Below, in pieces: positions 7,538-47,618 of a stretch of 64,000 nt of DNA (the stretch's first letter is position 1; each line of letters opens with the position of its first letter). A program made the position numbers and the translations under genes. The notes below the pieces were generated by a model. It made no database searches, was not told the origin of the DNA, and saw only the letters and a program-made list of their open reading frames with translations. The DNA is from Ruegeria aquimaris (GTDB taxonomy: Bacteria; Pseudomonadota; Alphaproteobacteria; Rhodobacterales; Rhodobacteraceae), in the NCBI RefSeq assembly GCF_025751555.1, contig NZ_JAOWLB010000003.1, positions 62,001 through 126,000 of the forward strand, in the 5' to 3' direction.

Positions 7538-8356
7538 GTGACCACAGACCACGAAAGACTGCGGCGCGCGGAAACAGCCGAGGTGCGGAGCGAGATACGG
7601 GCAGGCCGATATCGCGCCCATACGGCCGGGCTGGGGCTGGGGTTTCTGCAAACCAACCTCGCCATTCTGCCCGCGGCGTTTGCGCTTGATTTCATGCGAT
7701 ATTGCCAGCGCAATCCCAAGCCCTGCCCGCTAGTCGGTGTCTCGGACACCGGCAACCCGATGATGTTCACGCTGGGGCGCGATATCGACATCCGCACCGA
7801 CGTGCCTGCCTATAACATCTACCGCGAGGGTCGTCTGGATCACAGCACCCCGAGCATCGAAGACACCTGGCGCGCGGATATGGTGGCCTTTGCGCTCGGC
7901 TGTTCCTTTACCTTTGAACGGGCGCTGATCGAGGCGGGCATCCCGGTCTGGCATATCGACAATGACAGGACCGTGCCGATGTTCCGCTCGAACATCGACA
8001 CGGTTCCCGCCGGTCCGTTCAGCGGCAAGATGGTGGTCAGCATGCGCGGCATAGCCGCCGACCGGGTCGCCGACGCCATCGAAATCTCGCGCCGCTATCC
8101 GCTGGCGCATGGCGCGCCGGTGCATGCCGGAGATCCGGACGCGATCGGCATATCGGATATCGCGCGGCCGGACTGGGGCGATCCGGCCCCGATCGGCGAA
8201 GGACTGGTGCCCGTGTTCTGGGCCTGCGGCGTGACCCCGCAGGTCGCGATCGAAACGGCGGCGATCCCGCTTTGCATCACCCACAAGCCGGGTCACATGC
8301 TGATCACCGACATTCCCGAGGACGCCGAGGTTCCGGTACTTCGTCCAACCTCTTGA
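7538..8356 (+). CDS. DUF1445 family protein (D-glutamate cyclase-like, putative hydro-lyase)
   Basis: A 272-residue soluble protein of the DUF1445/YcsI family. The one characterised member type is D-glutamate cyclase, which turns D-glutamate into 5-oxo-D-proline; other members are annotated only as putative hydro-lyases. Recognisable stretches are ILPAAFALDFMRYCQRNPKP, the DTGNP segment, FALGCSFTFE and the C-terminal CITHKPGHMLITD. The GTG at 7538 is chosen because GGGAGG sits seven bases upstream; a TTG at 7517 is also in frame. It heads an operon with the three TRAP subunits, which suggests it acts on the imported organic or amino acid. Confidence 0.82.
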   Translation: MTTDHERLRRAETAEVRSEIRAGRYRAHTAGLGLGFLQTNLAILPAAFALDFMRYCQRNPKPCPLVGVSDTGNPMMFTLGRDIDIRTDVPAYNIYREGRLDHSTPSIEDTWRADMVAFALGCSFTFERALIEAGIPVWHIDNDRTVPMFRSNIDTVPAGPFSGKMVVSMRGIAADRVADAIEISRRYPLAHGAPVHAGDPDAIGISDIARPDWGDPAPIGEGLVPVFWACGVTPQVAIETAAIPLCITHKPGHMLITDIPEDAEVPVLRPTS

Positions 8357-8396
8357 CCACAAACCAATGATAACCAAGAACAACATGGAGACACTC

Positions 8397-9431
8397 ATGA
8401 AAAAGACACTCACATTCCTGGCCGCAACCACCATGCTGGCGGCCCCTGCCCTGGCCGAGGATCTTTCGGTTGTCGGCAGCTGGTCCGGACTGCCTCTTCA
8501 TAAGCAGTTCGAAGCCCCGTTCTGGAACGAGACGCTGCCCGCGGCGTCGGGCGGACAGATCAACGTGGCGCTCACCACTCATAACCAGATGAACCTGGGC
8601 GTCGGCGACGTGTTCCGTCTGCTGGGCGATGGTGTCTATGACGTGGCGATGACGGTGGCCGATTACGCCGTTGCGGACGCGCCGGAACTGGAAGGGCTGG
8701 ATGTGCCGCTGCTGGCGCTGACGGCGGACGAGGCGCGCGCCATGGTCGATGCCGCGCGCCCGATGGTCGAGGACATCTATAACGCCCGCTTCAACAGCCA
8801 TGTCCTGGCCATCGCGCCCTATCCGCCGCAGGTTGTGTTCTGCAACGCCGAGATCAACGGTCTGGACGATCTCAAGGGCAAGAAGGTGCGCGGGTCGGGC
8901 CGGATGACGACCCTGTTCCTCGAAGCGCTTGGCGCCGAAGGGGTGAATGTCAGCTTCTCCGAAGTGCCGGGCGCCTTGCAAAAAGGCGTCGTCGACTGCG
9001 CCATCACCGGCGCCGGGTCAGGCTACTCCGCCGGATGGTGGGAGGTCTCGACCCATCTGCTGCCGATCCCGCTGGGCGGCTGGGACAGTGTCGTGACCGC
9101 GATCAACCTCGACAAGTGGAACAGCCTGGGCGCCGATACGCAGGAACTGATCGCGGCACAGGTTGCCAGCGAATTCGAGGCGCCGGCCTGGGCCGATGCG
9201 CAGGGCGCGCTGGAAAACGACATCGCCTGCCTGACCGGCAATGGCGACTGCGCCTCGGGCGACAAACGCGGCATGACTCTGGTAGAGGTATCGGATGCCG
9301 ATTTCGCCAAGGCGCGCGAGGTGCTGGTCTCCAAGGTCCTGCCCGACTGGGCCGAACGCGCGGGCGGCGACTGGGCCGAACGCTGGAACGCATCGGTCGG
9401 TGAGACCGTCGGCGTGAAGATCGGCGGCTGA
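8397..9431 (+). CDS. dctP: TRAP transporter periplasmic solute-binding protein (DctP family)
   Basis: A 344-residue periplasmic binding protein that captures a carboxylate-bearing substrate for a TRAP importer. The Sec signal peptide is clear (MKKTLTFLAATTMLAAPALA, cleavage before ED). The DctP-type ligand region GKKVRGSGRM carries the arginine that normally pairs with the substrate carboxylate, and the segment AITGAGSGYSAGWWE lines the cleft. The start at 8397 is set by GGAG six bases upstream; the earlier in-frame ATG at 8367 would spoil the signal peptide. It lies 40 bases after DUF1445 and 24 before the small permease, in one operon. Confidence 0.92.
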   Translation: MKKTLTFLAATTMLAAPALAEDLSVVGSWSGLPLHKQFEAPFWNETLPAASGGQINVALTTHNQMNLGVGDVFRLLGDGVYDVAMTVADYAVADAPELEGLDVPLLALTADEARAMVDAARPMVEDIYNARFNSHVLAIAPYPPQVVFCNAEINGLDDLKGKKVRGSGRMTTLFLEALGAEGVNVSFSEVPGALQKGVVDCAITGAGSGYSAGWWEVSTHLLPIPLGGWDSVVTAINLDKWNSLGADTQELIAAQVASEFEAPAWADAQGALENDIACLTGNGDCASGDKRGMTLVEVSDADFAKAREVLVSKVLPDWAERAGGDWAERWNASVGETVGVKIGG

Positions 9432-9455
9432 GCCTAACCCACAGGAGGACCCCTC

Positions 9456-10004
9456 ATGGCGCAGATCCTGCTTTCGGGCCTGAGACGTATGAACCGCGCA
9501 ATCGCGATCCTGGTCGGCGTTCTGCTCTTGGCCTGCGTGGTCTTTGTGCTGGCAGATATCGTGCTGCGGCAAATGGGGTCCTCGCTGGGGGGGACGGATG
9601 AAATCAGCGGCTATGTGATGGCCATCGCCACCTCCTGGGGCATGGCCTTTACCCTGATCGAACTGGGCCATGTCCGCATCGACATCCTGCGCGGGCGCGC
9701 CACCGGGGGCGCCCGCGCCCTGTTCGACCTGACGGCGATGCTGGCGCTTGCCGTCACCGTGACGCTGATCGCGGTGCGCGGCTGGCCGGTGCTGTCGCGG
9801 TCGCTTGCCAATTCCTCGCGCGCGAACACACCGCTGGAAACACCGCTGGCGCTGGTTCAGGCGCCATGGCTGGCAGGCTGGATCTGGTTTGCGCTGGTGT
9901 CCTGGCTGACCTTCGTTGCCGCGCTCATGCTGATCGCCCGCCGCGATTTCTCGGCGTCCGAGGCGGCGATCGGTACCTTTGGCGAATTGGATGCGCTGAA
10001 ATGA
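9456..10004 (+). CDS. dctQ: TRAP transporter small permease subunit (DctQ family)
   Basis: A 182-residue inner-membrane protein with four predicted spans, the standard size and topology of the small TRAP subunit that partners the large permease. It is preceded by a good AGGAGG ribosome site, and its TGA stop overlaps the start of the large subunit as ATGA. Family identity rests on size, topology, the GTDEISGYVMAIATSWG stretch and position between the binding protein and DctM. Confidence 0.9.
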   Translation: MAQILLSGLRRMNRAIAILVGVLLLACVVFVLADIVLRQMGSSLGGTDEISGYVMAIATSWGMAFTLIELGHVRIDILRGRATGGARALFDLTAMLALAVTVTLIAVRGWPVLSRSLANSSRANTPLETPLALVQAPWLAGWIWFALVSWLTFVAALMLIARRDFSASEAAIGTFGELDALK

Positions 10005-11284
10005 TCGGATATCTGACACTGGGCCTTCTGGGTCTTCTGAGCCTCTCGATCCCGGTTGGTATCGTCCTGTTCCTGCTTGGCTTCGGGATCGACGCTTTCT
10101 TCAGCCCGTTTCCCCTGACCAGGGGCTTGGGCAATCTGGTCTGGTCGACCTCGAACAACGCGACCCTGATCGCCATTCCGTTCTTTGTGCTGCTGGGCGA
10201 AATCCTTGTCCGCTCCGGGCTGGCCACCCGAACCTATGCCGCGCTGGATCGCTGGGTCAGCTGGCTGCCCGGCGGCCTTGTGCATGCCAATATCGCCACC
10301 GCGACCATGTTCTCGGCCACTTCCGGTTCGTCGGTCGCGACCGCCGCCACCGTGGCCACGGTGGCGATGCCACAGGCCGAGAAGCTGGGATACGACCCCA
10401 AGCTGTTCTCGGGCGCGATTGCCGCGGGCGGCACCCTGGGCATCATGATCCCGCCCTCGATCAACCTGATCGTCTACGGGTTCCTGACACAGACCTCGAT
10501 CCCGCGCCTGTTCCTGGCGGGCCTGCTGCCCGGTATCGCTCTGGCGCTGGGCTTTGTTCTGGTCACGGCGCTGATTTGCGCGATCCGCCCCAGCCTGGGC
10601 GGCCAGCGCCGGGTGTTTCCCCTGTCCGAGATGATCCGCGCGCTGGCCGAGCTGATCCCGATCATCCTGCTCTTCACGATGATCATCGGCACCATCTACA
10701 AGGGTTGGGCCACCCCGACCGAAGCCGCCGCCGTGGGCGTTGCCGGCGCTCTGGTGATTGCGGCCATCTTTGGCGGTGTCAGCATCGCCATGCTGGGCGA
10801 GGCAATCCTGGGCACGGTCAAGATCACCTCGATGATCATGCTGGTGGTGATCGGTGCCTCGTTTTTGAACTTCACCCTCGCCTCGGCCGGGATCGGGCGC
10901 GAGCTGCAATCCTTCCTGGGCGGGCTGGGCCTGTCGCCGCTGGCCTTCATGATGGTGATCGTGGTGATCTATATCGTGCTTGGGTTCTTCATCGAGACCC
11001 TGTCGCTGATGGTGGTGACCATCCCGATCATCGTGCCGCTGGTGGTCGAACAGGGCTATGACCCGATCTGGTTCGGCATCCTGATGATCGTGCTGATCGA
11101 GATGGCGCTGATCACGCCGCCTGTGGGGCTGAACCTCTATGTGGTGCAGGGCGCGCGCAAATCCGGCACGATGAGTGAGGTGATGCTGGGCACCCTGCCC
11201 TATATCGCGGCGATGCTGGCGATGGTGGTGGCCCTGATCGCCTTTCCGCAGATCGCGCTTTACCTGCCCGACGCGCTGCAATGA
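10001..11284 (+). CDS. dctM: TRAP transporter large permease subunit (DctM family)
   Basis: A 427-residue polytopic sodium-coupled permease that carries the substrate across the inner membrane. Family hallmarks include the early NATLIAIPFFVLLGEIL, the TMFSATSGSSVATAATVATVA re-entrant segment, GTLGIMIPPSI and the near-C-terminal ALITPPVGLNLYVVQG. The start overlaps the DctQ stop. It is the last gene of the operon; only six bases separate its stop from that of the convergent M20 peptidase gene. Confidence 0.95.
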   Translation: MIGYLTLGLLGLLSLSIPVGIVLFLLGFGIDAFFSPFPLTRGLGNLVWSTSNNATLIAIPFFVLLGEILVRSGLATRTYAALDRWVSWLPGGLVHANIATATMFSATSGSSVATAATVATVAMPQAEKLGYDPKLFSGAIAAGGTLGIMIPPSINLIVYGFLTQTSIPRLFLAGLLPGIALALGFVLVTALICAIRPSLGGQRRVFPLSEMIRALAELIPIILLFTMIIGTIYKGWATPTEAAAVGVAGALVIAAIFGGVSIAMLGEAILGTVKITSMIMLVVIGASFLNFTLASAGIGRELQSFLGGLGLSPLAFMMVIVVIYIVLGFFIETLSLMVVTIPIIVPLVVEQGYDPIWFGILMIVLIEMALITPPVGLNLYVVQGARKSGTMSEVMLGTLPYIAAMLAMVVALIAFPQIALYLPDALQ

Positions 11285-36432: not shown

Positions 36433-36481
36433 ACCCGCAAACCGCAGGCATCCGATTGCCGGAAAATCACCACAAACGGTT

Positions 36482-36510
36482 TCAAGTTGTTGCGATCCTT
36501 GGTTATGCTG
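36482..36510 (+). promoter_or_regulatory. candidate speA promoter
   Basis: TTCAAG and TATGCT are separated by 17 bases, a reasonable sigma-70 type pair upstream of the polyamine operon. It predicts a leader of roughly 150 bases before the TTG start at 36666. No known riboswitch was recognised in that leader. Confidence 0.35.
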
Positions 36511-36665
36511 GCCCGACTACCGACCAAGGCGCCGGGCACAAACGGCCCGAAGTCCATTTCGCGCGCCCGTTGCCGCAACCGCAAGTTTGGCCTTGGACGA
36601 ATCGAACCCCGCCATTAAACGGCGACCCGAAACCGACACCGCATCTGCAGGAAAGGCCGAACCGA

Positions 36666-38555
36666 TTGAAACATCTTCTTGACGCACCGCATTCCATCTA
36701 CGGCGTGGACAAATGGGGCAAGGGCCTGATTGTGGTGACAGAAGATGGTGAAATCGGGCTTCGCAATCCGCTCCGCCCCGAGGCCGCCACCGTCAGTCTT
36801 CCCGACATCCTGCGCGACCTAGACCAACGCGGCATCCGCGCGCCGATGCTGTTGCGGATCAGTTCGTACCTTGAAAACGAGATCGCCCATATCAATGACA
36901 GCTTTGCCGACGCCATCGCCCGCTCGGGCTACAAGGGCACCTATCGCGGTGTGTTCCCGATCAAGGTCAACCAGCAGGCCCAGGTGATCGACCGCATCGT
37001 CGAGTTTGGCCACCGCTACAATTACGGGCTCGAGGCCGGGTCGAAACCCGAACTGGTGATCGCGCTGGCGCACAAGCTGGCGCCCGAGGCGCTGATCGTC
37101 TGCAATGGGGTCAAGGATGCCGAGTTCATCCGGCTGGCCATCCTCAGCCGCAAGCTGGGCTTCAACACCGTTATCGTGCTGGAAAGCCCGAAAGAGGCCG
37201 AGACCGTCATCGAGGTCTACAAAGAACTCGGGATCGAGCCGCTTCTGGGCGTACGGGTGAAACTCACCAACCAGATCAGCGGCAAGTGGGAGGAAAGCTC
37301 GGGCGACCGCTCCTCGTTCGGGATGAACACCGACCAGTTGGTGCGCGTGGTCGACAAGCTTCGCGATGCCGGGCTGATCCATTGCCTGAAACTTCAGCAT
37401 TCCCACCTTGGCAGCCAGGTGCCCGACGTCAACGATGTGCGCCGGGCCGTGGGCGAGGCCTGCCGCTACTTCACCGAACTCAGCGCCGAGGGCGTGCCGC
37501 TCAGCCATCTGGATCTGGGCGGCGGCATGGGCGTCGATTACACCGGTGAAAAACGCGCGACCGAGAACTCGATCAACTACACGGTCGAGGAATATTGCGC
37601 CAATGTGGTGGAAACCGTGGCCTATGCGATGGACGAGGCCGGCATCGGCCACCCCACCATCGTCACCGAAAGCGGCCGCGCGGTGGTGGCAACCTCGTCG
37701 CTGCTGGTGTTCAACGTGCTCGAAAGCACGCTTTACGACGCACCCACCGCGCCCGCCGTCGAACCCGATGACCACCATTTGGTGGCCGACCTTGCGGCGG
37801 TGAACGGCTATCTGACACCCGCGCGCCTGCAAGAATGCTGGAACGACGCCACCTTCTATCGCAACGAATTGCGCGCCCTCTTCCGCCGCGGCTATGTCGA
37901 CCTGCGCCAGATGGCCCGGGCCGAACGCATCTATCTGTCGCTGATGGCGCGGATCAAGACCATGGTGGCCGAGGTCGAGGCCGAAACCGATCTGGACGCT
38001 CAGCTGGAAAAGATCGCCGATATCTATCACTGCAACTTTTCTTTGTTCCAGTCGCTGCCCGATGTCTGGGCCATCGACCAGCTGCACCCGATCGTGCCGC
38101 TCCAGATGCTGAACGAGGAACCCGACCGCCGTGCGGTCCTGTCCGACATCACCTGCGACAGCGACGGCAAGGTGGACCGCTTCATCCTCGCCGATGGCGT
38201 GTCGCCGTCACTGCCGGTGCATTCCCTGCCCGAGGATCAGGATTACTATCTCGGCGTCTTCTTCGTCGGCGCCTATCAAGAGACTTTGGGCGATCTGCAC
38301 AACCTCTTTGGCGACACCAACGTCGTCACCATCGACCTGCGCGCCGATGGCGGGTTCGACCTGCTGCACGAACAGGAGGGCGACACCATTTCCGAAGTAC
38401 TGTCCTATGTCGAATACGACCCGGCCGATTGCGTCGCCGCCTTCCGAAAGCTGGTCGATGGCGCCATATCGAACGGCTGCCTCAAGGCCAGCGAACGCAA
38501 GTTGATCATCGGCGCCTACCGCGACAGCATCAACGGCTATACCTATTACGAATAA
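36666..38555 (+). CDS. speA: biosynthetic arginine decarboxylase
   Basis: A 629-residue PLP enzyme of the alanine-racemase-fold arginine decarboxylase family; it converts arginine to agmatine. The PLP lysine is Lys100 in GVFPIKVNQQ, the glycine-rich phosphate loop is LDLGGGMGVDY, and the catalytic cysteine region is ITCDSDGKVDRF. I placed the start at the TTG at 36666 because AGGAAAGG lies just upstream and the protein then begins MKHLLDAPHSIYGVDKWG like its relatives. The frame stays open to 36456, but that stretch has no family similarity. First gene of the polyamine operon. Confidence 0.93.
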   Translation: MKHLLDAPHSIYGVDKWGKGLIVVTEDGEIGLRNPLRPEAATVSLPDILRDLDQRGIRAPMLLRISSYLENEIAHINDSFADAIARSGYKGTYRGVFPIKVNQQAQVIDRIVEFGHRYNYGLEAGSKPELVIALAHKLAPEALIVCNGVKDAEFIRLAILSRKLGFNTVIVLESPKEAETVIEVYKELGIEPLLGVRVKLTNQISGKWEESSGDRSSFGMNTDQLVRVVDKLRDAGLIHCLKLQHSHLGSQVPDVNDVRRAVGEACRYFTELSAEGVPLSHLDLGGGMGVDYTGEKRATENSINYTVEEYCANVVETVAYAMDEAGIGHPTIVTESGRAVVATSSLLVFNVLESTLYDAPTAPAVEPDDHHLVADLAAVNGYLTPARLQECWNDATFYRNELRALFRRGYVDLRQMARAERIYLSLMARIKTMVAEVEAETDLDAQLEKIADIYHCNFSLFQSLPDVWAIDQLHPIVPLQMLNEEPDRRAVLSDITCDSDGKVDRFILADGVSPSLPVHSLPEDQDYYLGVFFVGAYQETLGDLHNLFGDTNVVTIDLRADGGFDLLHEQEGDTISEVLSYVEYDPADCVAAFRKLVDGAISNGCLKASERKLIIGAYRDSINGYTYYE

Positions 38556-38580
38556 CCCACCAGCCAGAGGAGACTTTCCC

Positions 38581-39792
38581 ATGGGCAAAACACTCGTTGT
38601 CGGCGCAGGTGGCGTCAGCCACGCCGCCGTTCACAAGATGGCCATGAATTCCGACATCTTTACCGAGATCACTCTGGCCAGCCGAACCAAGGCGAAATGC
38701 GACGCCATCGCCGCCTCGGTCAAGGAACGCACCGGCGTGACGATCAAGACCGCCGCGCTCGATGCGATGGACGTGGCCGCCACTGTCGCGTTGATCAAGG
38801 AGACAGGCGCCGAGATCCTCGTGAACCTCGCCCTGCCCTATCAGGACCTCAAGCTGATGGATGCCTGTCTCGAGGCCGGGTGCCACTACCTCGATACCGC
38901 GAACTATGAGCCCGAGGATGTGGCCAAGTTCGAATATCACTGGCAATGGGCCTATCAGGACAAGTTCAAGGCCGCTGGCCTGACCGCCATCCTCGGCTCG
39001 GGCTTCGATCCGGGCGTTACCTCGGTCTTTGCCACCTGGCTCAAGAAGCACAAGCTTGCCACCATCCGCCAGATCGACGTGCTGGATGCCAATGGCGGCT
39101 CGAACGAGCAGGCATTCGCCACCAATTTCAACCCCGAGATCAACCTGCGCGAGGTTCTGGCCGAGGCACGCCACTGGGAAAACGGCGCCTGGCAGGTCAC
39201 GCCGGCGATGACCCACAAGGTCGAATTCGATTTCCCCGGCATCGGGCCCAAGAACATGTACCTGATGTATCACGAGGAACTGGAGAGCCTCTCGACCCAC
39301 TTTCCCGAGATCGAGCGCGCCCGCTTCTGGATGACATTCGGCGATGCCTATATCATGCACGCCAAGGTGCTCGAAAACGTCGGCATGACCCGCATCGACC
39401 CCGTCATGCATGACGGCAAGGAAATCATCCCGATCCAGTTCCTCAAAACCCTGCTGCCCGATCCCGGCACGCTAGCCGAAGAGACCAAGGGCAAGGCCTG
39501 CATCGGCGATATCGCCACGGGTCAGGCCAAGGACGGATCAGGCGAGAAGACCTATTACATCTACAACATCTGCGACCACGAGGAATGCTTCCGCGAAGTG
39601 GGCAGCCAGGCGGTTTCCTACACCACCGGTGTCCCCGCGATGATCGGCGCGGCGCAGGTGCTCAAGGGCAACTGGGTGGAACCGGGCGTGTGGAACATGG
39701 AACAGCTCGACCCCGATGACTTCATGGACATGCTGAACAATCATGGCCTGCCATGGCAGGTCCACGAACTCGACGGTCCGGTCGAGTTCTGA
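38581..39792 (+). CDS. carboxyspermidine/carboxynorspermidine dehydrogenase (saccharopine dehydrogenase family)
   Basis: A 403-residue NADPH-dependent enzyme that condenses aspartate semialdehyde with a diamine (putrescine here) and reduces the imine to carboxyspermidine. The Rossmann motif is VVGAGGVSHAAVHKMA. Typical segments include CHYLDTANYEPED, AILGSGFDPGVTSVFA and the C-terminal GVPAMIGAAQVL. An AGAGGAG precedes the start, 25 bases after speA. With its partner decarboxylase it replaces the SpeD/SpeE route to spermidine. Confidence 0.92.
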   Translation: MGKTLVVGAGGVSHAAVHKMAMNSDIFTEITLASRTKAKCDAIAASVKERTGVTIKTAALDAMDVAATVALIKETGAEILVNLALPYQDLKLMDACLEAGCHYLDTANYEPEDVAKFEYHWQWAYQDKFKAAGLTAILGSGFDPGVTSVFATWLKKHKLATIRQIDVLDANGGSNEQAFATNFNPEINLREVLAEARHWENGAWQVTPAMTHKVEFDFPGIGPKNMYLMYHEELESLSTHFPEIERARFWMTFGDAYIMHAKVLENVGMTRIDPVMHDGKEIIPIQFLKTLLPDPGTLAEETKGKACIGDIATGQAKDGSGEKTYYIYNICDHEECFREVGSQAVSYTTGVPAMIGAAQVLKGNWVEPGVWNMEQLDPDDFMDMLNNHGLPWQVHELDGPVEF

Positions 39793-39817
39793 AACATCGC
39801 CCGGCGGCAACGCGGGC

Positions 39818-39847
39818 AGCGCCCGACCCGCCCCATGGGCGGGCGCT
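39818..39847 (+). promoter_or_regulatory. hairpin between dehydrogenase and decarboxylase genes
   Basis: AGCGCCCG pairs with CGGGCGCT across a GC-rich loop, in the 104-base gap before nspC. No T-run follows. It could stabilise or attenuate the polyamine message between the two genes. Confidence 0.4.
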
Positions 39848-39896
39848 ACGCTTCCGCCCCGGTTCGGGCGCTGCCCTCGTCACTTGGAGCACCCCA

Positions 39897-41066
39897 ATGT
39901 CCGACATGATGCAAACTCAGGCCGGTGATGCCGGCGCCTTTCGCACCTTCGACCTCTCCCGCGTGCCCACGCCCTGTTTCGTGGTCGACGAAGTCGCCAT
40001 CGAGCGGAACCTCAAGATCCTGCGCGACATTTCCGACCGCTCCGGCGCGCATGTGCTGTCGGCGCTCAAGGCGTTTTCCATGTTCGCCCTCGCCCCGCTG
40101 GTCCGCCAATATCTCGGAGGCACCTGCGCTAGCGGCATCTACGAGGCGCGGTTGGGGCGCGAGGAATATGGCGGCGAAGTCGCCACCTTCTGCGCCGGGT
40201 ACAAGGAACAGGATATCGACGAGATCCTGTCGCTCAGCGACCACATCATCTTCAACAGCCCGGCGCAAAAGGACCGCTTCCTGACCCGCGCACAGGCGGC
40301 GGGCGTTCAGGTGGGTCTCAGGATCAACCCCGAACATTCCGAAGGCGAGATCGCCAAATACGACCCCTGCGCGCCCTGTTCGCGGCTCGGCACCCCGGTC
40401 AGCCAGTTGACGCCCGAGGCGCTAACAGGGGTCGACGGGCTGCACATGCACACGCTCTGCGAACAGGGGTTCGAGCCCTTGCAGCGCACCTGGGCGGCAG
40501 TCGAGGCGAAGCTCGCCCCCAATCTGCCCGGCCTCAAATGGCTCAATTTCGGCGGCGGCCATCACATCACCCGCGCCGATTACGACCGCGACGCGCTGGT
40601 GCGCTTCATCCAGGGGATCCGCGAGAAACACGGCCTCGACGTCTACCTCGAACCCGGCGAGGCGGTGGCGCTGGATGCGGGTATCCTCGTGGGTGAAATC
40701 CTTGACCTGCCCTCCAATGGCATGGACCTCGCCATTACCGATATCTCGGCCACCTGCCATATGCCGGACGTGATCGAGGCGCCCTATCGCCCCGCCCTGA
40801 TGGACGAGGCCGAGAGCGGCCATACCTATCGCCTGGGCGGCCCCTCCTGCCTCGCCGGTGACGTGATCGGCGACTACACCTGGGACCAACCGCTGACCAT
40901 CGGCCAGCGCTTTGCCTTTCTCGATCAGGCGCATTATTCGATGGTCAAGACCAACACATTCAACGGCGTGCCCCTGCCCACGATCGCGCTTTGGAACAGC
41001 GACACCGACGCGCTGCGCATCATCCGCCAATTCGACTATTCCGATTTCAAGGACCGCCTCTCATGA
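39897..41066 (+). CDS. nspC: carboxynorspermidine/carboxyspermidine decarboxylase
   Basis: A 389-residue PLP-dependent decarboxylase of the alanine-racemase fold that yields spermidine (or norspermidine). The PLP lysine is in VLSALKAFSM, the glycine loop is LNFGGGHHIT, and EPGEAVALDAGILV and SCLAGDVIGDY are family hallmarks. The start at 39897 is set by GGAG seven bases upstream. Its stop overlaps speB (ATGA). With putrescine made by SpeA and SpeB, the likely product is spermidine. Confidence 0.93.
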   Translation: MSDMMQTQAGDAGAFRTFDLSRVPTPCFVVDEVAIERNLKILRDISDRSGAHVLSALKAFSMFALAPLVRQYLGGTCASGIYEARLGREEYGGEVATFCAGYKEQDIDEILSLSDHIIFNSPAQKDRFLTRAQAAGVQVGLRINPEHSEGEIAKYDPCAPCSRLGTPVSQLTPEALTGVDGLHMHTLCEQGFEPLQRTWAAVEAKLAPNLPGLKWLNFGGGHHITRADYDRDALVRFIQGIREKHGLDVYLEPGEAVALDAGILVGEILDLPSNGMDLAITDISATCHMPDVIEAPYRPALMDEAESGHTYRLGGPSCLAGDVIGDYTWDQPLTIGQRFAFLDQAHYSMVKTNTFNGVPLPTIALWNSDTDALRIIRQFDYSDFKDRLS

Positions 41067-41911
41067 GCATCTTCCTCGACAGCGAACTTTCAGCCGCCGA
41101 ACGGACCGAAGACGCCCGTTTCCGCATCATCCCGGTGCCCCTGGAACGCACCGTCTCATACGGCTCAGGCACCGCCGCCGGTCCGGCGGCGATCCTTGAC
41201 GCGTCAAACGAGCTGGAACGCATCACCAACGGCGCCGAACCCTGCGCGCAGGGCATCTTCACCGAAGCCCCGCTCGATTGCGACGGCCCGCTGCCCGAGG
41301 TGATGGAGCGTCTGGCACAGCGCACCGAGGCCGCCATCCGCGCGGGCCAAGTACCCGTGACGCTGGGAGGTGAACATTCGCTCAGCTTCGGCGCGGTTAT
41401 GGGCGTGGCGCGCGCGCTGGGACAGCCGCTGGGGCTGGTGCAGATCGACGCCCATGCCGACCTGCGCATCGCCTATCAGGGCGAGAAACACAGCCACGCC
41501 TCGGTCATGCACCTGCTCGCCGAGGAGGGCATTCGCCTGGCACAATTCGGCGTCCGTGCCCTCTGCCAGCAGGAAATGGACGAGCGCGCCAGACATGGCG
41601 TGTTCTTCAAGGATGCCGAGGAGCTGGTCACCGGGAGTATCCACGCCGTCGACCTGCCCGGGGATTTCCCCAAGCTGGTCTATGTCAGCTTCGATGTCGA
41701 CGGGCTGGACCCGGCCCAGATGCCCGCAACCGGCACGCCGGTGCCCGGCGGGCTGGGGTACTATCAGGCCCTGCATCTGGTCGAGCACGCGCTCAAGGGC
41801 CGCAAATGTGTCGGGCTCGACGTGGTGGAGCTGGCGCCCGATGGCAATGCCGCATGGGATTTCACCACAGCCCAGATCGTCTATCGGCTGATGGCGGCCT
41901 GCACCGGGTGA
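41063..41911 (+). CDS. speB: agmatinase (ureohydrolase family)
   Basis: A 282-residue manganese enzyme that splits agmatine into putrescine and urea. The dinuclear metal motifs are clear: GGEHS, DAHAD and SFDVDGLDP. It is translationally coupled to nspC and completes an arginine-agmatine-putrescine-spermidine operon. Because of this context agmatinase is preferred to arginase or guanidinobutyrase, though family sequences alone do not fully separate these. Confidence 0.9.
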   Translation: MSIFLDSELSAAERTEDARFRIIPVPLERTVSYGSGTAAGPAAILDASNELERITNGAEPCAQGIFTEAPLDCDGPLPEVMERLAQRTEAAIRAGQVPVTLGGEHSLSFGAVMGVARALGQPLGLVQIDAHADLRIAYQGEKHSHASVMHLLAEEGIRLAQFGVRALCQQEMDERARHGVFFKDAEELVTGSIHAVDLPGDFPKLVYVSFDVDGLDPAQMPATGTPVPGGLGYYQALHLVEHALKGRKCVGLDVVELAPDGNAAWDFTTAQIVYRLMAACTG

Positions 41912-42021: not shown

Positions 42022-43383
42022 ATGAATGATGCATCATTTCCCGCACTTGCGCGCCTCGGCACATTTGTTGCCGAGGCGGCATTGGCGCTAGACGACAGCG
42101 CACAGGCACAGCTGCGCGCCGCGGTGGCCGACTGCCTCGGCTGCATCCTTGCAGGCGTCCAGATGCCGGTATCCGCCAAGGCCCGCGCCGCGGTTCGCGC
42201 CATGGGCATCGGTGGCGGCGTTGCGGTTCTGGGCACGGGACAGCGCACGGCACCTGCACAAGCAGCCTTCCTGAATGCCACCGCCGGTCACGCGCTCGAC
42301 TTCGACGATTGGGAGGCGCCCGGCAACACCCATCCAACGGTGGTGATGCTGCCCGCGTTGCTGGCCTGCGCGGCACCCGGCATGACAGGCGCCGACCTGA
42401 TCGCGCCCTATCTTGCGGGGTTCGAGGTGATCGCCCGTCTTGGCGAGGCGCTGAACCTGGAACACTACGGCGCGGGCTGGCATGCGACCGCAACGCTGGG
42501 TACCCTTGGGGCGACGGCAGCCGTCGCCCGCCTGATGCGGCTTGACGCCCGGCATAGCGCCCATGCGATGGCGCTGGCGATCAGCCGGGCCGCCGGATAC
42601 ACCTGCCAGTTCGGCAGCAACGCCAAACCGTTGCAGGCCGGTTTTGCAGCGCAAGCCGCCGTGGAATGCGCCTATCTGGCCGCGGCCGGGGCCGAAGGCC
42701 AGTTGCATGCGCTCGACCACCCGCGCGGCTTTGCGGCGCTGACCGGCGGTGCCGACCCCCGGCGCCTGCGCGACGCGCTCGACCGGCTTGGCCAGCCGCT
42801 GGCGCTGAGCGAACATGGGATCGCCCTCAAACCCTGGCCAAATTGCAGCTACACCCACCGCCTGATGACCGCCCTAGTGGGCCTGCGCGACGGTCTGAGG
42901 CCCGAGAGTGTCACGCGCATCGACCTTCACCTGCCCGATGTGCATGCCGCGATCCTCCCGTTCCACCAGCCACGCGACCATGGCGAGGCGCTGTTCAGCC
43001 TGCCCTTCGCCTGCGCCATGGCCCTGGTTCACGGCGACCTGACGCTGGCCGATACCGCGCGCGACGCCTGGACCGATCCTCAAATCGTCACCCTGATCAG
43101 CCGCACCCATGTGCACCCGTTCCGCCCCCGGCGGCCAGAACTCAACTTCGACCCTGAGGAACCCGACCGGGCCGTGGTGACACTGGATGACGGGCAGATC
43201 CTCACCTCGACCTGCACCTATCCGCTTGGCGCACCGCAGAACCCGCTTGCACCCCACCGGATCAGGGCCAAGCTGGCCAGCAATATCGCGCCACGGCCCG
43301 CGGGCCTCGCCGATATGCTGCTGGATTGGCCCGAGGCACCCGACCTCCTCGGCCTCATCGACAAGATCGCGGACCCGGCCTGA
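42022..43383 (+). CDS. MmgE/PrpD family protein
   Basis: A 453-residue protein of the MmgE/PrpD family (2-methylcitrate dehydratase and cis-aconitate decarboxylase relatives). Family stretches are CLGCILAG, GHALDFDDWEAPGNTHP, GWHATATLGTLGATAAVA and KPWPNCSYTHRLMTAL. Many family members are not 2-methylcitrate dehydratases, and no prpB/prpC neighbours are seen, so the substrate is open. It follows speB after a possible attenuator and ends three bases before the convergent dehalogenase stop. Confidence 0.87.
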   Translation: MNDASFPALARLGTFVAEAALALDDSAQAQLRAAVADCLGCILAGVQMPVSAKARAAVRAMGIGGGVAVLGTGQRTAPAQAAFLNATAGHALDFDDWEAPGNTHPTVVMLPALLACAAPGMTGADLIAPYLAGFEVIARLGEALNLEHYGAGWHATATLGTLGATAAVARLMRLDARHSAHAMALAISRAAGYTCQFGSNAKPLQAGFAAQAAVECAYLAAAGAEGQLHALDHPRGFAALTGGADPRRLRDALDRLGQPLALSEHGIALKPWPNCSYTHRLMTALVGLRDGLRPESVTRIDLHLPDVHAAILPFHQPRDHGEALFSLPFACAMALVHGDLTLADTARDAWTDPQIVTLISRTHVHPFRPRRPELNFDPEEPDRAVVTLDDGQILTSTCTYPLGAPQNPLAPHRIRAKLASNIAPRPAGLADMLLDWPEAPDLLGLIDKIADPA

Positions 43384-43386
43384 GCC

Positions 43387-46300
43387 TCAGAGGTCGATTT
43401 CGACCACCCCACCCGGTTCCAGCGCGCGCGACTGGCACAGGATGATCGCACCCTCGCGCTGTTTCTTCGACAGCACGAAATCGCGATGCTCCACCTCACC
43501 CGCGACCAGCCCGCATTTGCAGACGCCACAGATCCCGTCAGAACATTTCACGTCGACATGAAACCCGCTCTCGTTCAGCACCTGCGCCGCATCCTTGTCC
43601 GCAGGCACCTCCAGCACCCGACCGGACTGGGCAAGTTTCAGGGTAAAGGGATGGTTCACATAATCCGGCTGCTCGGGGACCGAGAAATACTCCAGATGCC
43701 GCGCCTCCTCGGGAAAGCCCTGCCGTTCGGCGGCCTTCATCACCCCGTCCATGTAGCGATCCGGCCCGCAGGTATAGACATGCCAGCCGGGCTGATAGCC
43801 CGCCAGTACCGTGTCGAGATCGGCGCGCGTGCCCTCGTCCGAAAGATGCAGATGCACCCGGTCGGCCCAGGGCATGGCGGCGAGGTCCGCCAGATATCCC
43901 GCCCCGCCCCGGGTCGAGGTGGAATAATGCAGCTCGAATTCCGCGCCCAGCGCGTGCAATCGATGGGCAAAGGCAATCATCGGCGTGATACCGATACCGC
44001 CCCCCATTAGGAAGGTGCGCGTCGCGGTTTCATCCAATTCGAAATGGTTGATCGGCTTTGAGATGAATACCTTGCGCCCCTCGGTAAAGATGCGATGCAT
44101 CAGCTTGGACCCGCCGCGCCCCTCATTCTCGCGCAGCACCCCGATCTGATACTTCGTCCGGTCAGCCGGATCGCCCGACATCGAATATTGCCGCAGGAAC
44201 TCGGGCGCGACCAGCACATCCAGATGCGCCCCCGCCGTCCATTCCGGCAAAGGCGCACCGTCGAGCGCCGAGAACTCGTATTTCGTCACGTCGCCGGTCA
44301 TCTTCTCGGCCCGGCTGACCGCCACCCGGATCACCGGCGCGCTGTCGGCATCGGGCACGGTGTAGCGGTGCACCACCGACATATCCCCCGCTGCCATCCG
44401 CGACTTGTATTCGTCTGCCGTCACCATGGCCTCATACGCGGCAATCCCCGCCTCGCGATCCATCGGAAACGGATAGGGCCAGGGATACGGCGCCAGCGGC
44501 GCGGGATAGACGGCCAGCGTCTGATCCTCGTATTTCAGGTCCAGATCCTTTTGCAGGCCGCGCCGGTTCAGCGGATGGGTCGAGGGCCGATAGGCCCCGT
44601 CCGCCTGCAACTCGATATCCCACCACCATTTCTTGACGTCGTTCAGCCCGCCATTACCCACCATGTCGTCCAGACGCGCCAGCGCAGGGGCCGCCGCCGG
44701 AATGGTCATCGCCGCCCAGCGGAACGGGCGTTCGGCAAATATCCCCTCGAGGTTCCAGGGACAGGTCTTCATGCAGCGCCCGCACATCGCGCCGCCTCGG
44801 GTGGTGATGCGGTAGGTGGCGCATTTCTGGCTGTCGGACTTCCAGATCTCGTAGCCGTTGAACATCAGCTTCGGCCCGGCGGTGATCGCCCCCGACGGGC
44901 ATTCGCGGGCGCATTTGTTGCAGCTCTCGCAGAACCTTTGCAGGCCAAAGTCGAGGGGCTTGTCATGGGTGATCGGCATGTCGGTCGTCACCACGCCGGA
45001 TTTCAGGCGCGGGCCAAGGTAGGGGTTCAGGATCACCTCGCCGATACGGCTGACCTCGCCCAGACCAGAAAGCAGCAGCAAGGGCGGCTGCAACACCTCG
45101 CCATCCATCACCGTATGCGCCTTGGCCTTGTAACCAAGGTTGCGGATCTGCTGCGCGATCACGCCGCCCAGCAGCGAGAAGCGCAAGTAAGCGCGCATGG
45201 ATTGTGCCACCGCGATCCAGTCGTCGCCGCTCGACCCCTCCATCGTCTCATAGCCCTGGTCGATGATCATGCTGACCGCTTGATCATGCGGCGGAGTGAT
45301 CGCCTCGCCGGTGGCGTCATGGCTGTACCAGGCCCATTCCGGGCATCGGCTGAGCCCGACCGCATCGACCCCCAGGAAATAGCTCGCCGCTTTCAGGTTG
45401 GCGGCGTTGCGGGCAGCGCTTTCCGGTTTGTACAAAACGGCACTTTCGCCATCCTGAAGCAGTACAAAAGCGCCAAGTGCGCGTCTCTGGGCAAAACTGG
45501 GCGCCGCCTTGCGCACATAATGGCCGCCCTTCGCCCCCTCTTGCAGCGCCTTGCCCATGTCGCCGAACTGCGCCCGCGCAAACATATCCGCGCGCTTTGG
45601 GACACGGGCAACATTGGCCTCGTCGATATAGGTTGTCGGCGTCTCGACCCGCTTCAGTTTTTCGAAAGGATGCGCCCCATCGACATAACGCCGCTTCGCA
45701 TAAACATCTCGGTTCATTGCGTTTTTTGCGAACCCGGTACCCAGCCACCAGGCCGGGCCCTGCGTCCTGAACCAGGGTTGAGCGCGCATCGGGGCCAGGG
45801 CCGCATCGTGGGCGATCTCCATTTCTGTTGTCACCGCCGCCAGACCGAAACGCGTCCCCAGCCAAGGCGCGACCAATTGGCCGCCCTCGACCGTCACCAA
45901 CCCCGCCGCCACCGCCAGCCGACCAAGATCCACATCCGTGGAGGTCATCGAATGCGCCCGCGCATCGAACCCTAGGAGCCTGATATAATTCGCAATTACG
46001 ACCGCATTCTCTGTGGCCAGCAAACAGGCGCGATGATCCTGGGCATCGAGGATCCAGTCGCTGCCCGGTTCTTCTGGCGTCGGGTCACGGTGATGTTCAT
46101 AAAGGAACACGATGGCATGGCGGTGGCTGTCGATACCGGTCGGTTCCACCTCCATGCTCTCCTTCAGGTCCGCCATGATCAGGTCGATACCCGAGGCCAG
46201 CGTCTTGGTCTGGCGCGTCCGCAGCGCCGCCGCCAGCCGGTCGATATCGCCATTGCGTCGGGGCACCGGCAGCAGCGCCTCGGCCGGGAGCGGGCCGCAG

Positions 46301-46605
46301 CCCATCATCGAGGCGTCGTTGAAATACCCAAATGCTTTCAGATGCTTGGATCGCTCTTGCGGATCCGTGGGGATTTCGGCACGGGTCGGGTTCACCAGCC
46401 CGGCGCGGATCGCGTCCAGCATCGCCTGAAACTCGCCCATTGCGTTGACGATGCTCTCGGGCCGTTCGGGTCGGTGAAAGCTGAGCCCCGGCATGTCGGG
46501 AACGCCAGCCAGACCCGCCACGCCTTCGCGCCGGGCCAGCCGCTCCAGCGGGTAGGGTCCCATATGCACCGGACGCTTTTTGTCCGAGAAGAAACGAATA
46601 CCCAT
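43387..46605 (-). CDS. self-sufficient cobalamin-dependent reductive dehalogenase fused to ferredoxin reductase (BhbA/NpRdhA type)
   Basis: A 1072-residue cytoplasmic fusion. Residues about 1-640 are a reductive dehalogenase with two 4Fe-4S motifs: CESCNKCARECP (Cys559, 562, 565, 569) and Cys595-X12-Cys608-X2-Cys611-X3-Cys615. The segment after about 780 is a phthalate-dioxygenase-reductase-like module: flavin site RQYSMSG, nucleotide site GGGIGITPMI and a plant-type 2Fe-2S site (Cys1021, 1026, 1029, 1057). No Tat signal or membrane anchor is present, unlike respiratory enzymes. This layout matches catabolic aerobic dehalogenases from Comamonas (BhbA) and Nitratireductor (NpRdhA), which take electrons from NADPH. 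Tyr427 is a plausible counterpart of the catalytic tyrosine. The start has GGAGG. Halogenated substrate unknown. Confidence 0.88.
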   Translation of the reverse strand: MGIRFFSDKKRPVHMGPYPLERLARREGVAGLAGVPDMPGLSFHRPERPESIVNAMGEFQAMLDAIRAGLVNPTRAEIPTDPQERSKHLKAFGYFNDASMMGCGPLPAEALLPVPRRNGDIDRLAAALRTRQTKTLASGIDLIMADLKESMEVEPTGIDSHRHAIVFLYEHHRDPTPEEPGSDWILDAQDHRACLLATENAVVIANYIRLLGFDARAHSMTSTDVDLGRLAVAAGLVTVEGGQLVAPWLGTRFGLAAVTTEMEIAHDAALAPMRAQPWFRTQGPAWWLGTGFAKNAMNRDVYAKRRYVDGAHPFEKLKRVETPTTYIDEANVARVPKRADMFARAQFGDMGKALQEGAKGGHYVRKAAPSFAQRRALGAFVLLQDGESAVLYKPESAARNAANLKAASYFLGVDAVGLSRCPEWAWYSHDATGEAITPPHDQAVSMIIDQGYETMEGSSGDDWIAVAQSMRAYLRFSLLGGVIAQQIRNLGYKAKAHTVMDGEVLQPPLLLLSGLGEVSRIGEVILNPYLGPRLKSGVVTTDMPITHDKPLDFGLQRFCESCNKCARECPSGAITAGPKLMFNGYEIWKSDSQKCATYRITTRGGAMCGRCMKTCPWNLEGIFAERPFRWAAMTIPAAAPALARLDDMVGNGGLNDVKKWWWDIELQADGAYRPSTHPLNRRGLQKDLDLKYEDQTLAVYPAPLAPYPWPYPFPMDREAGIAAYEAMVTADEYKSRMAAGDMSVVHRYTVPDADSAPVIRVAVSRAEKMTGDVTKYEFSALDGAPLPEWTAGAHLDVLVAPEFLRQYSMSGDPADRTKYQIGVLRENEGRGGSKLMHRIFTEGRKVFISKPINHFELDETATRTFLMGGGIGITPMIAFAHRLHALGAEFELHYSTSTRGGAGYLADLAAMPWADRVHLHLSDEGTRADLDTVLAGYQPGWHVYTCGPDRYMDGVMKAAERQGFPEEARHLEYFSVPEQPDYVNHPFTLKLAQSGRVLEVPADKDAAQVLNESGFHVDVKCSDGICGVCKCGLVAGEVEHRDFVLSKKQREGAIILCQSRALEPGGVVEIDL

Positions 46606-46640
46606 CGCGCGCCTCCAGTCTTTCCTCCGCCCTAGCGTGG

Positions 46641-46659
46641 AATGGACACCAAATCCATT
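46641..46659. promoter_or_regulatory. inverted repeat in dehalogenase/LysR divergent region
   Basis: AATGGA-CACCAAA-TCCATT is a perfect 6-base-arm inverted repeat with T-N11-A geometry, between the dehalogenase start (46605) and LysR start (46680). It is a good LysR-type site. A second repeat TTCATGA/TCATGAA (46658-46684) overlaps the LysR start codon. Confidence 0.5.
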
Positions 46660-46679
46660 CATGACTAATCATAGATATC

Positions 46680-47618
46680 ATGAAGGAATTCGATTTTACC
46701 GATCTGGATGGCAAGGTGCTGCGCGCCTTTCTGACGATACTCGAAGAAAGCTCGGTCTCGCGCGCCGCCGATCGGTTGGGCGTGACGCAATCCGCGGTCA
46801 GCCACACTCTGGCGAAACTGCGCGCGGTGCTGGGCGACCCGCTGTTCGTCCGCTCCGGCCAGGGACTGACCCCGACCGAACGCGCGCTGGCCCTGCGGGA
46901 GCCCGTGCAAACCGTTCTCGACGGCATGCGCGGGCTGACCGATGGACGCCCATTCGACCCGATGTCCGAAGAGATGGAATTTCACATCGCTGTCAATGAC
47001 TTGCAGAGAGAACTGATCTTTCCCCACTTGTTCAGGGCCGCCCGCGCAGAGGGGGTGCAGCTCAGGCTCGGGTTCCTGCCCTCGGGCGTTCCGGGACCCG
47101 ATCTGTTGCGCAGCGACCGCTGCCAACTAATGCTGACCCCCCTGCCGCCGGACGGGCCGGATATCTTTCAGAAGCGGCTGTTATCAAGCCCTCTCATGGT
47201 GTTTCACGACGCTACCCAAGGGCAACCGCCCAAGACTTGGGAAGAGTATTGTGATGCAGAACATGTCGAGGTGCGCTTTCCCGATGGGCGTAACGCCCGC
47301 ACGGTCATGCAAGGCGTGGACCAGAGTCAGATCAGGCCGCCCACGGTCATCCTGCCGCATTTCAACGCCATCCCCGCCTTTGTCAAAGGCAGCACCCTGA
47401 TCTCGACCGACACCGCGCTGATGAAGCGGGGGCCGCTGGCCACGCTCGACTGCGCGCCGTTGCCGTTTCACTGCCCGCCTGTGTCGATCTACATGGTCTG
47501 GCATCAGCGCTCGGCGTCTGACCCGGCACACCGCTGGTTGCGTGCACGGGTGGAGGAGATTGCGGCCAATCTGAGCGATCTAACCGACGAGGCGTTCAGT
47601 ATCCGACACGGGCCTTGA
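46680..47618 (+). CDS. LysR family transcriptional regulator (dehalogenase-linked)
   Basis: A 312-residue LysR regulator with helix-turn-helix VLRAFLTILEESSVSRAADRL and recognition segment VTQSAVSHTLAKLR, close to the NodD/NahR-like branch (FVRSGQGLTPTERAL). It is divergent from the reductive dehalogenase with only 74 bases between, so it is the obvious candidate regulator of that gene. No ribosome site is seen before the ATG, so the message may be nearly leaderless. Its last 23 bases overlap the 3' end of the opposite oxidoreductase gene. Confidence 0.92.
   Translation: MKEFDFTDLDGKVLRAFLTILEESSVSRAADRLGVTQSAVSHTLAKLRAVLGDPLFVRSGQGLTPTERALALREPVQTVLDGMRGLTDGRPFDPMSEEMEFHIAVNDLQRELIFPHLFRAARAEGVQLRLGFLPSGVPGPDLLRSDRCQLMLTPLPPDGPDIFQKRLLSSPLMVFHDATQGQPPKTWEEYCDAEHVEVRFPDGRNARTVMQGVDQSQIRPPTVILPHFNAIPAFVKGSTLISTDTALMKRGPLATLDCAPLPFHCPPVSIYMVWHQRSASDPAHRWLRARVEEIAANLSDLTDEAFSIRHGP

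Follow-up and report, generated by a model that had tools for sequence, protein, structure and literature searches.

A stretch of 64,000 nucleotides from Ruegeria aquimaris (contig NZ_JAOWLB010000003.1, positions 62,001 to 126,000; hereafter the window) encodes on its minus strand a single polypeptide in which a reductive dehalogenase (RdhA) is joined to a module resembling phthalate dioxygenase reductase (PDOR). This fusion protein fits the 'self-sufficient catabolic RdhA' subfamily represented by BhbA and JtRdhA, and it is most probably (probability about 0.88) a cytoplasmic, air-tolerant and self-sufficient B12-dependent RdhA, driven by NAD(P)H, that would debrominate or deiodinate ortho-halophenols for aromatic catabolism. 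Its cofactors, reaction and air tolerance are proposed by analogy with published relatives, and the removal of bromine or iodine from ortho-halophenols in particular by analogy with JtRdhA, which has the same architecture; what is said of its natural substrate and regulation is a guess. The subfamily, the architecture and the mechanism are already in print.

Domain architecture and iron–sulfur motifs

A sequence-only reading of the same DNA had placed at 43387–46605 one chain of 1072 residues, with an RdhA iron–sulfur signature and a C-terminal flavin/NAD/2Fe-2S reductase, in a marine roseobacter. The uninterrupted open reading frame (ORF) is found there, from 46605 to 43387, both parts of the chain are borne out by the matches given below, and the sequence, the tree and the context support the host. 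The features of the gene are the following.

43387..46605, minus strand: rdhA–PDOR fusion gene, 1072 codons plus stop
45808..46368, minus strand: N-terminal, vestigial copy of the RdhA core, recognised by a second and weak TIGR02486 match (E 9.1e-6) and by similarity to NpRdhA in sequence and fold
44656..45312, minus strand: predicted catalytic cobalamin/4Fe-4S core, residues 432–650 (TIGR02486)
44899..44931, minus strand: first 4Fe-4S motif, CESCNKCAREC (CX2CX2CX3C), residues 559–569
44761..44823, minus strand: second 4Fe-4S motif, CX12CX2CX3C, residues 595–615
45187..45189, minus strand: Tyr473, counterpart of the catalytic Tyr426 of NpRdhA, kept in 108/108 rows
45001..45003, minus strand: Lys535, counterpart of NpRdhA Lys488, kept in 108/108 rows
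44809..44811, minus strand: Arg599, counterpart of NpRdhA Arg552, kept in 108/108 rows
43417..44334, minus strand: PDOR-like module (flavin, NAD(P)H, 2Fe-2S), residues 758–1063 (2PIA match)
43435..43545 (C1021 to C1057), minus strand: predicted plant-type 2Fe-2S ligands C1021, C1026, C1029 and C1057 (Fer2 and residue reading)

The NCBIfam model TIGR02486 ('reductive dehalogenase') matches the core with 189.1 bits against a cut-off of 160.35 (E 1.7e-55), and its second match covers part of the N-terminal half; a vestigial duplicate of the core is a trait of catabolic RdhAs, as described in passages of PMC10463259. NpRdhA aligns with the fusion protein over residues 2–105 and 160–737 (E ~1e-150), and the phthalate dioxygenase reductase 2PIA over the C-terminal module (E 7.4e-56), and on account of these three matches the motif set is not a product of chance. 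Pfam finds 4Fe-4S dicluster and Fer2 domains. Its dehalogenase model PF13486 was not reported at a limit of E 0.001, and since it was likewise silent on BhbA (limit 1e-4), this is taken as a limit of the model.

Conservation was read from an alignment of 109 rows, made up of NpRdhA, 106 fused proteins (the window protein included) and two unfused ones. All 109 rows retain the eight 4Fe-4S cysteines, and all 106 fused rows the four 2Fe-2S cysteines. The seven fused rows printed share an insert of about 40 residues (near 118–158) that neither NpRdhA nor the two unfused rows have. This agrees with the insert that is reported as specific to fusions in the description of JtRdhA (PMC10463259, in part), and the two may be the same.

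An AlphaFold model built from 26 sequences has a mean predicted local distance difference test (pLDDT) of 65.2 and a predicted template modelling (TM) score of 0.54, the N-terminal duplicate and the reductase module being mostly well predicted. Its top Foldseek matches are chains of NpRdhA (E 3.5e-38, query TM 0.49, target TM 0.72), followed, for the reductase module, by self-sufficient P450s and 2PIA (2pia E 1.2e-27). The model contributes little beyond the sequence match.

Catalytic residues and proposed mechanism

With NpRdhA the fusion protein shares 43% identity over 569 aligned residues. The NpRdhA residues S422, M423, Y426, K488, R552 and F291, whose roles are taken from passages of PMC7565698 and PMC10463259, correspond here to S469, M470, Y473, K535, R599 and F342, and all six are unchanged in the 108 rows other than NpRdhA. 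The alignment to NpRdhA and BhbA proposed in the earlier reading thus keeps the catalytic residues of the former and gives 51% identity to the latter over the whole chain; the cobalamin-site tyrosine named there, Tyr427, is the Y of WAWYSHD, and the counterpart of the catalytic tyrosine is Tyr473. NpRdhA K307 lies in a gapped stretch that two alignments place differently, so nothing is drawn from it.

The mechanism proposed here takes as templates JtRdhA (PMC10463259) and NpRdhA (PMC7565698), as far as the passages on them go. Hydride from NAD(P)H would be passed to the flavin mononucleotide of the C-terminal module, from which electrons would travel one at a time through the 2Fe-2S cluster and both 4Fe-4S clusters and reach the base-off cobalamin of the second RdhA core. 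The cobalt would contact directly a halogen ortho to the phenol hydroxyl, Tyr473, helped by Lys535 and Arg599, would give the proton, and halide and dehalogenated phenol would be released. The enzyme would work in the cytoplasm and in air, supplying aromatic catabolism and not respiration; its probable substrates are brominated or iodinated compounds of marine origin resembling 4-hydroxybenzoate or 4-hydroxyphenylacetate, and the divergently encoded LysR protein probably controls its expression. A profile search of the window genome found cobN, bluB, pobA, pcaH and hpaD over curated family cut-offs, and the host has in them marker genes for B12 synthesis and for the breakdown of the expected products.

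Translation start and predicted location

The ORF listing puts the start 19 residues earlier, at 46662 (1091 residues). The start at 46605 is preferred because GGAGG precedes it, 7–11 bases upstream, and because the protein aligns with the N-terminus of NpRdhA from residue 2 onward; no GGAGG occurs in the 30 bases preceding 46662, and the 1072-residue form thus appears to fit best.

46612..46616, minus strand: GGAGG, putative ribosome-binding site for the 46605 start, read from the upstream sequence

The absence of a twin-arginine (Tat) leader, as first claimed, agrees with a pattern search for [ST]RRx[FLVIMA][LKM], which has no match in residues 1–69 of the 1091-residue form; three plain RR pairs occur there. 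The companion claim, that there is no anchor protein, holds for the adjoining genes: the gaps of 3 bp and 74 bp to the MmgE/PrpD and LysR neighbours are too small for an anchor gene to sit next to the fusion gene, the rest of the genome not having been searched for one.

Weighing the readings

Several observations weigh against the catabolic reading. Confidence in the structure model is low in the catalytic core, much of which falls below pLDDT 50. Some of the pocket-lining residues differ from those of NpRdhA (F290 to M341, A419 to V466, N452 to V499), and therefore the substrates may differ too; at these positions M occurs in 96, V in 103 and V in 104 of the 108 other rows, respectively. The gene is also patchy: in a survey of 101 genomes, that of the host and 100 relatives, a full-length fused homologue occurs in 25, all of them among the 61 genomes of the window's own family. 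No aromatic-catabolic gene lies beside the fusion gene in the window, and the link to pobA is weak, this gene being over its cut-off in 22 of the 25 carriers and in 24 of the 36 same-family non-carriers (Fisher two-sided p 0.07), an association that is a hint only.

The same type of enzyme could instead serve detoxification or signal removal, in which toxic or signalling bromophenols would be dehalogenated and the product not used for growth, a role that is possible though on the doubtful side. It is favoured by the window, where neither an aromatic-catabolic nor a transport gene adjoins the fusion gene, and by a comparison of neighbours in 106 distinct loci (42 with at least 82% identity, 64 below), in which the 64 more distant loci have 41 upstream and 48 downstream classes of immediate neighbour. 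The presence of pobA, pcaH and hpaD in the host speaks against it, as do the plasmid cluster in which BhbA lies with protocatechuate 4,5-dioxygenase genes and the homologue of Nitratireductor sp. OM-1, a few kb from pobA.

That the protein is an epoxyqueuosine reductase like QueG, or uses the RdhA scaffold for some other reductive purpose, is very improbable: QueG is related and matches the fusion protein weakly, but the genome has a separate candidate homologue of QueG size (contig C22, 331 residues) and the dehalogenase catalytic residues are retained, and QueG identity was rejected at 24.1 bits for TIGR00276 against a cut-off of 200. A respiratory organohalide reductase, with which the protein has TIGR02486 and the two 4Fe-4S motifs in common, besides weaker matches to PceA, is barely credible and was rejected for want of a twin-arginine motif in the N-terminal region searched and of space for an adjoining anchor gene, the protein also having its own reductase module and a full-length match to BhbA.

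Genomic neighbourhood and regulation

The gene is flanked by an MmgE/PrpD gene (42022–43383, plus strand), which converges on it with a gap of 3 bp, and by a divergent LysR-family gene that starts 74 bp away.

46680..47618, plus strand: divergent LysR-family regulator (HTH_1, LysR_substrate), possible regulator of the fusion gene
46640..46660, no strand assigned: inverted repeat GAATGGA-N7-TCCATTC within the 74 bp between the two genes, a weak candidate for a LysR site

Neighbouring genes in the compared loci were called by a codon-usage heuristic, which may overlook individual genes. In 35 of the 42 loci with at least 82% identity, and in none of the 64 below, the fusion gene adjoins a divergent LysR gene of one cluster; a divergent LysR neighbour is usual in Ruegeria, and elsewhere the surroundings vary. 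Upstream regions were compared for the 67 of 110 loci in which the start could be placed by pattern, the other 43 being left out. In the window the two arms of the 21-bp repeat match perfectly; CATGAATGG occurs in 28 of 31 distinct LysR-type upstream regions, and ATGG-N9-CCAT is kept in 16 of these 31 and in one of 35 others. The repeat is thus a weak candidate for a LysR site, whose conservation may be explained by shared descent alone.

Directly downstream of the fusion gene and on its strand, 32 of the 42 distinct close loci have a gene for a xanthine dehydrogenase-type FAD-binding subunit, after which mostly come an ORF of 159 residues and a molybdenum-binding subunit (for example L068:12324-15936, whose two outer subunits, when scanned, gave no family match over cut-off). 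Such genes are missing beside the window copy, as they are from every one of the 64 distinct loci with less than 82% identity, and no functional link with the fusion gene is built on them.

Of six plasmid regions with homologues, five have annotated regulators of the MarR or LysR type, three have parts of TRAP or tripartite-tricarboxylate transporters (BhbA, Aminobacter and Yoonia) and two have protocatechuate or 4-hydroxybenzoate genes (BhbA and OM-1); the region of Ruegeria sp. TM1040 has no such regulator, transporter or aromatic genes in its incomplete table. Elsewhere in the window, 36456–41911 holds what we take to be a polyamine-like gene run, with ORFs resembling arginine decarboxylase, carboxynorspermidine dehydrogenase, a decarboxylase and agmatinase.

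Distribution and phylogeny

Few enzymes of this kind are characterised, as the earlier reading said, yet the gene is not rare in roseobacters. Some match occurs in 62 of the 101 surveyed genomes, and among the matches listed those that are not fusions cover the reductase part only or the RdhA part only. In a species-level genome collection, 330 stretches encode some relative; the best 80 of these 330 are all full-length or nearly so, are 74–94% identical in the best segment and come mostly from Ruegeria, Shimia and other Rhodobacterales, with four from Hyphomicrobiales, and the nearest named record among them is Ruegeria sp. PrR005 (94%). Of 1014 plasmid records with a match, eight span 80% or more of the query, BhbA on pBHB included.

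In a tree of 79 rows, made by a quick method, with 21 of 76 inner branches starred and the root placed by us at NpRdhA and two unfused relatives, the window protein lies in a 17-row fork with otherwise Ruegeria-type rows (SH-like approximate likelihood ratio test 93); among the starred sets of at most half the rows, none includes it. BhbA and the OM-1 protein form a separate starred branch, and NpRdhA and the two unfused relatives lie outside the fusions, where the root was set. A recent foreign origin of the window copy is unsupported by this placement and by its G+C content (63.4% against 64.3% across the window).

Four rows from Hyphomicrobiales (L095, L113, L136 and L141) stand among Rhodobacterales in the tree; L095, the metagenome-assembled genome Nitratireductor sp. 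HKST-UBA64, has an 80% identical fusion protein, by transfer or on a mis-binned contig. These rows, and neighbourhoods that change wholesale between genera, suggest some transfer or mis-binning. On a plasmid of Yoonia sp. SS1-5 (L147, ~8001–11208) a fusion homologue lies in two pieces, with no annotated gene and no full ORF, and is either a broken copy or a sequencing error; this two-piece match was dropped from the rows because a full ORF was not found.

A second reductive dehalogenase-like gene

The genome of the host encodes, outside the window, a second reductive dehalogenase-like ORF that lacks a fused reductase (424 residues, contig C18 41626–42900 by reckoning, L061:6627-7901). It scores 164.1 bits with TIGR02486, over the cut-off, and carries CDICTKCADACP and CAICMRVCP with a 54-residue spacing, as quoted for Ros_A3X954 of Roseobacter sp. 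MED193, a marine roseobacter reductive dehalogenase that debrominates 2,6-dibromophenol and is reported to be oxygen-sensitive (PMC13101508, in the passages on it). The 4Fe-4S motifs of Ros_A3X954, at 283–345, match this second ORF and not the fusion protein, and since they lie so early, Ros_A3X954 would have no N-terminal duplicate of this size.

Comparison with known systems

Literature searches turned up no paper that names this very protein, which is not taken as a sign of novelty. The term 'reductive dehalogenase' is absent from the main text of PMC10919026, on macroalgal microbiomes. Passages of PMC10463259 list an RdhA of Ruegeria pomeroyi DSS-3 (AAV93904) in a tree legend, and PMC13101508 describes, in the part available, putative bhbA homologues as widespread in the Roseobacter clade.

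The sequence-only reading had named BhbA and NpRdhA as the characterised enzymes of this type; BhbA is indeed fused, but NpRdhA is not, according to the text of PMC10463259 at hand, and the right reference is JtRdhA of Jhaorihella thermophila (WP_104007082). That enzyme is described there as removing bromine and iodine from ortho-halophenols aerobically with NADPH; it takes bromo- and iodophenols, works in air and is inhibited by chloro analogues. Going by its description, the two proteins have in common the order Rhodobacterales, a marine origin, the lack of a Tat signal, the duplicated core, the fused PDOR and the key residues, and identity to NpRdhA is ~39% for JtRdhA (PMC10463259, in part) and 43% for the window protein over the residues aligned. 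The activity of JtRdhA has been measured, whereas the window protein is known from sequence alone and is likened to JtRdhA through the published description.

BhbA (Comamonas sp. 7D-2, plasmid pBHB, WP_015585978) has the same architecture end to end, but differs in its separate tree branch with Nitratireductor sp. OM-1, in its pocket residues and in lying near ring-cleavage and transporter genes. NpRdhA (Nitratireductor pacificus; PDB 4RAS, 6ZXU, 6ZXX, 6ZY0 and 6ZY1) has the same RdhA half and catalytic residues; it has no reductase domain and needs partner proteins, as PMC10463259 states in the passage concerned. It is conceivable, although rather unlikely, that the roseobacter fusion branch, with its M/V/V pocket, is a distinct substrate class which, with the LysR sensor and the second reductive dehalogenase of the same cell, makes up a system of two enzymes acting on bromo- and iodophenols that occur naturally in the sea, one not represented by BhbA or NpRdhA.

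If the fusion protein is active, a common group of aerobic marine bacteria could release bromide and iodide from naturally occurring phenols, drawing on NAD(P)H and on B12 of what is probably their own making, and reductive dehalogenation would not be confined to anoxic sediment. This point has largely been made already by JtRdhA and by the report that bhbA homologues are widespread among roseobacters; the present case adds one genome carrying B12 and ring-degradation markers, a candidate for the regulator and, in Ruegeria, a genus that lends itself to genetics.

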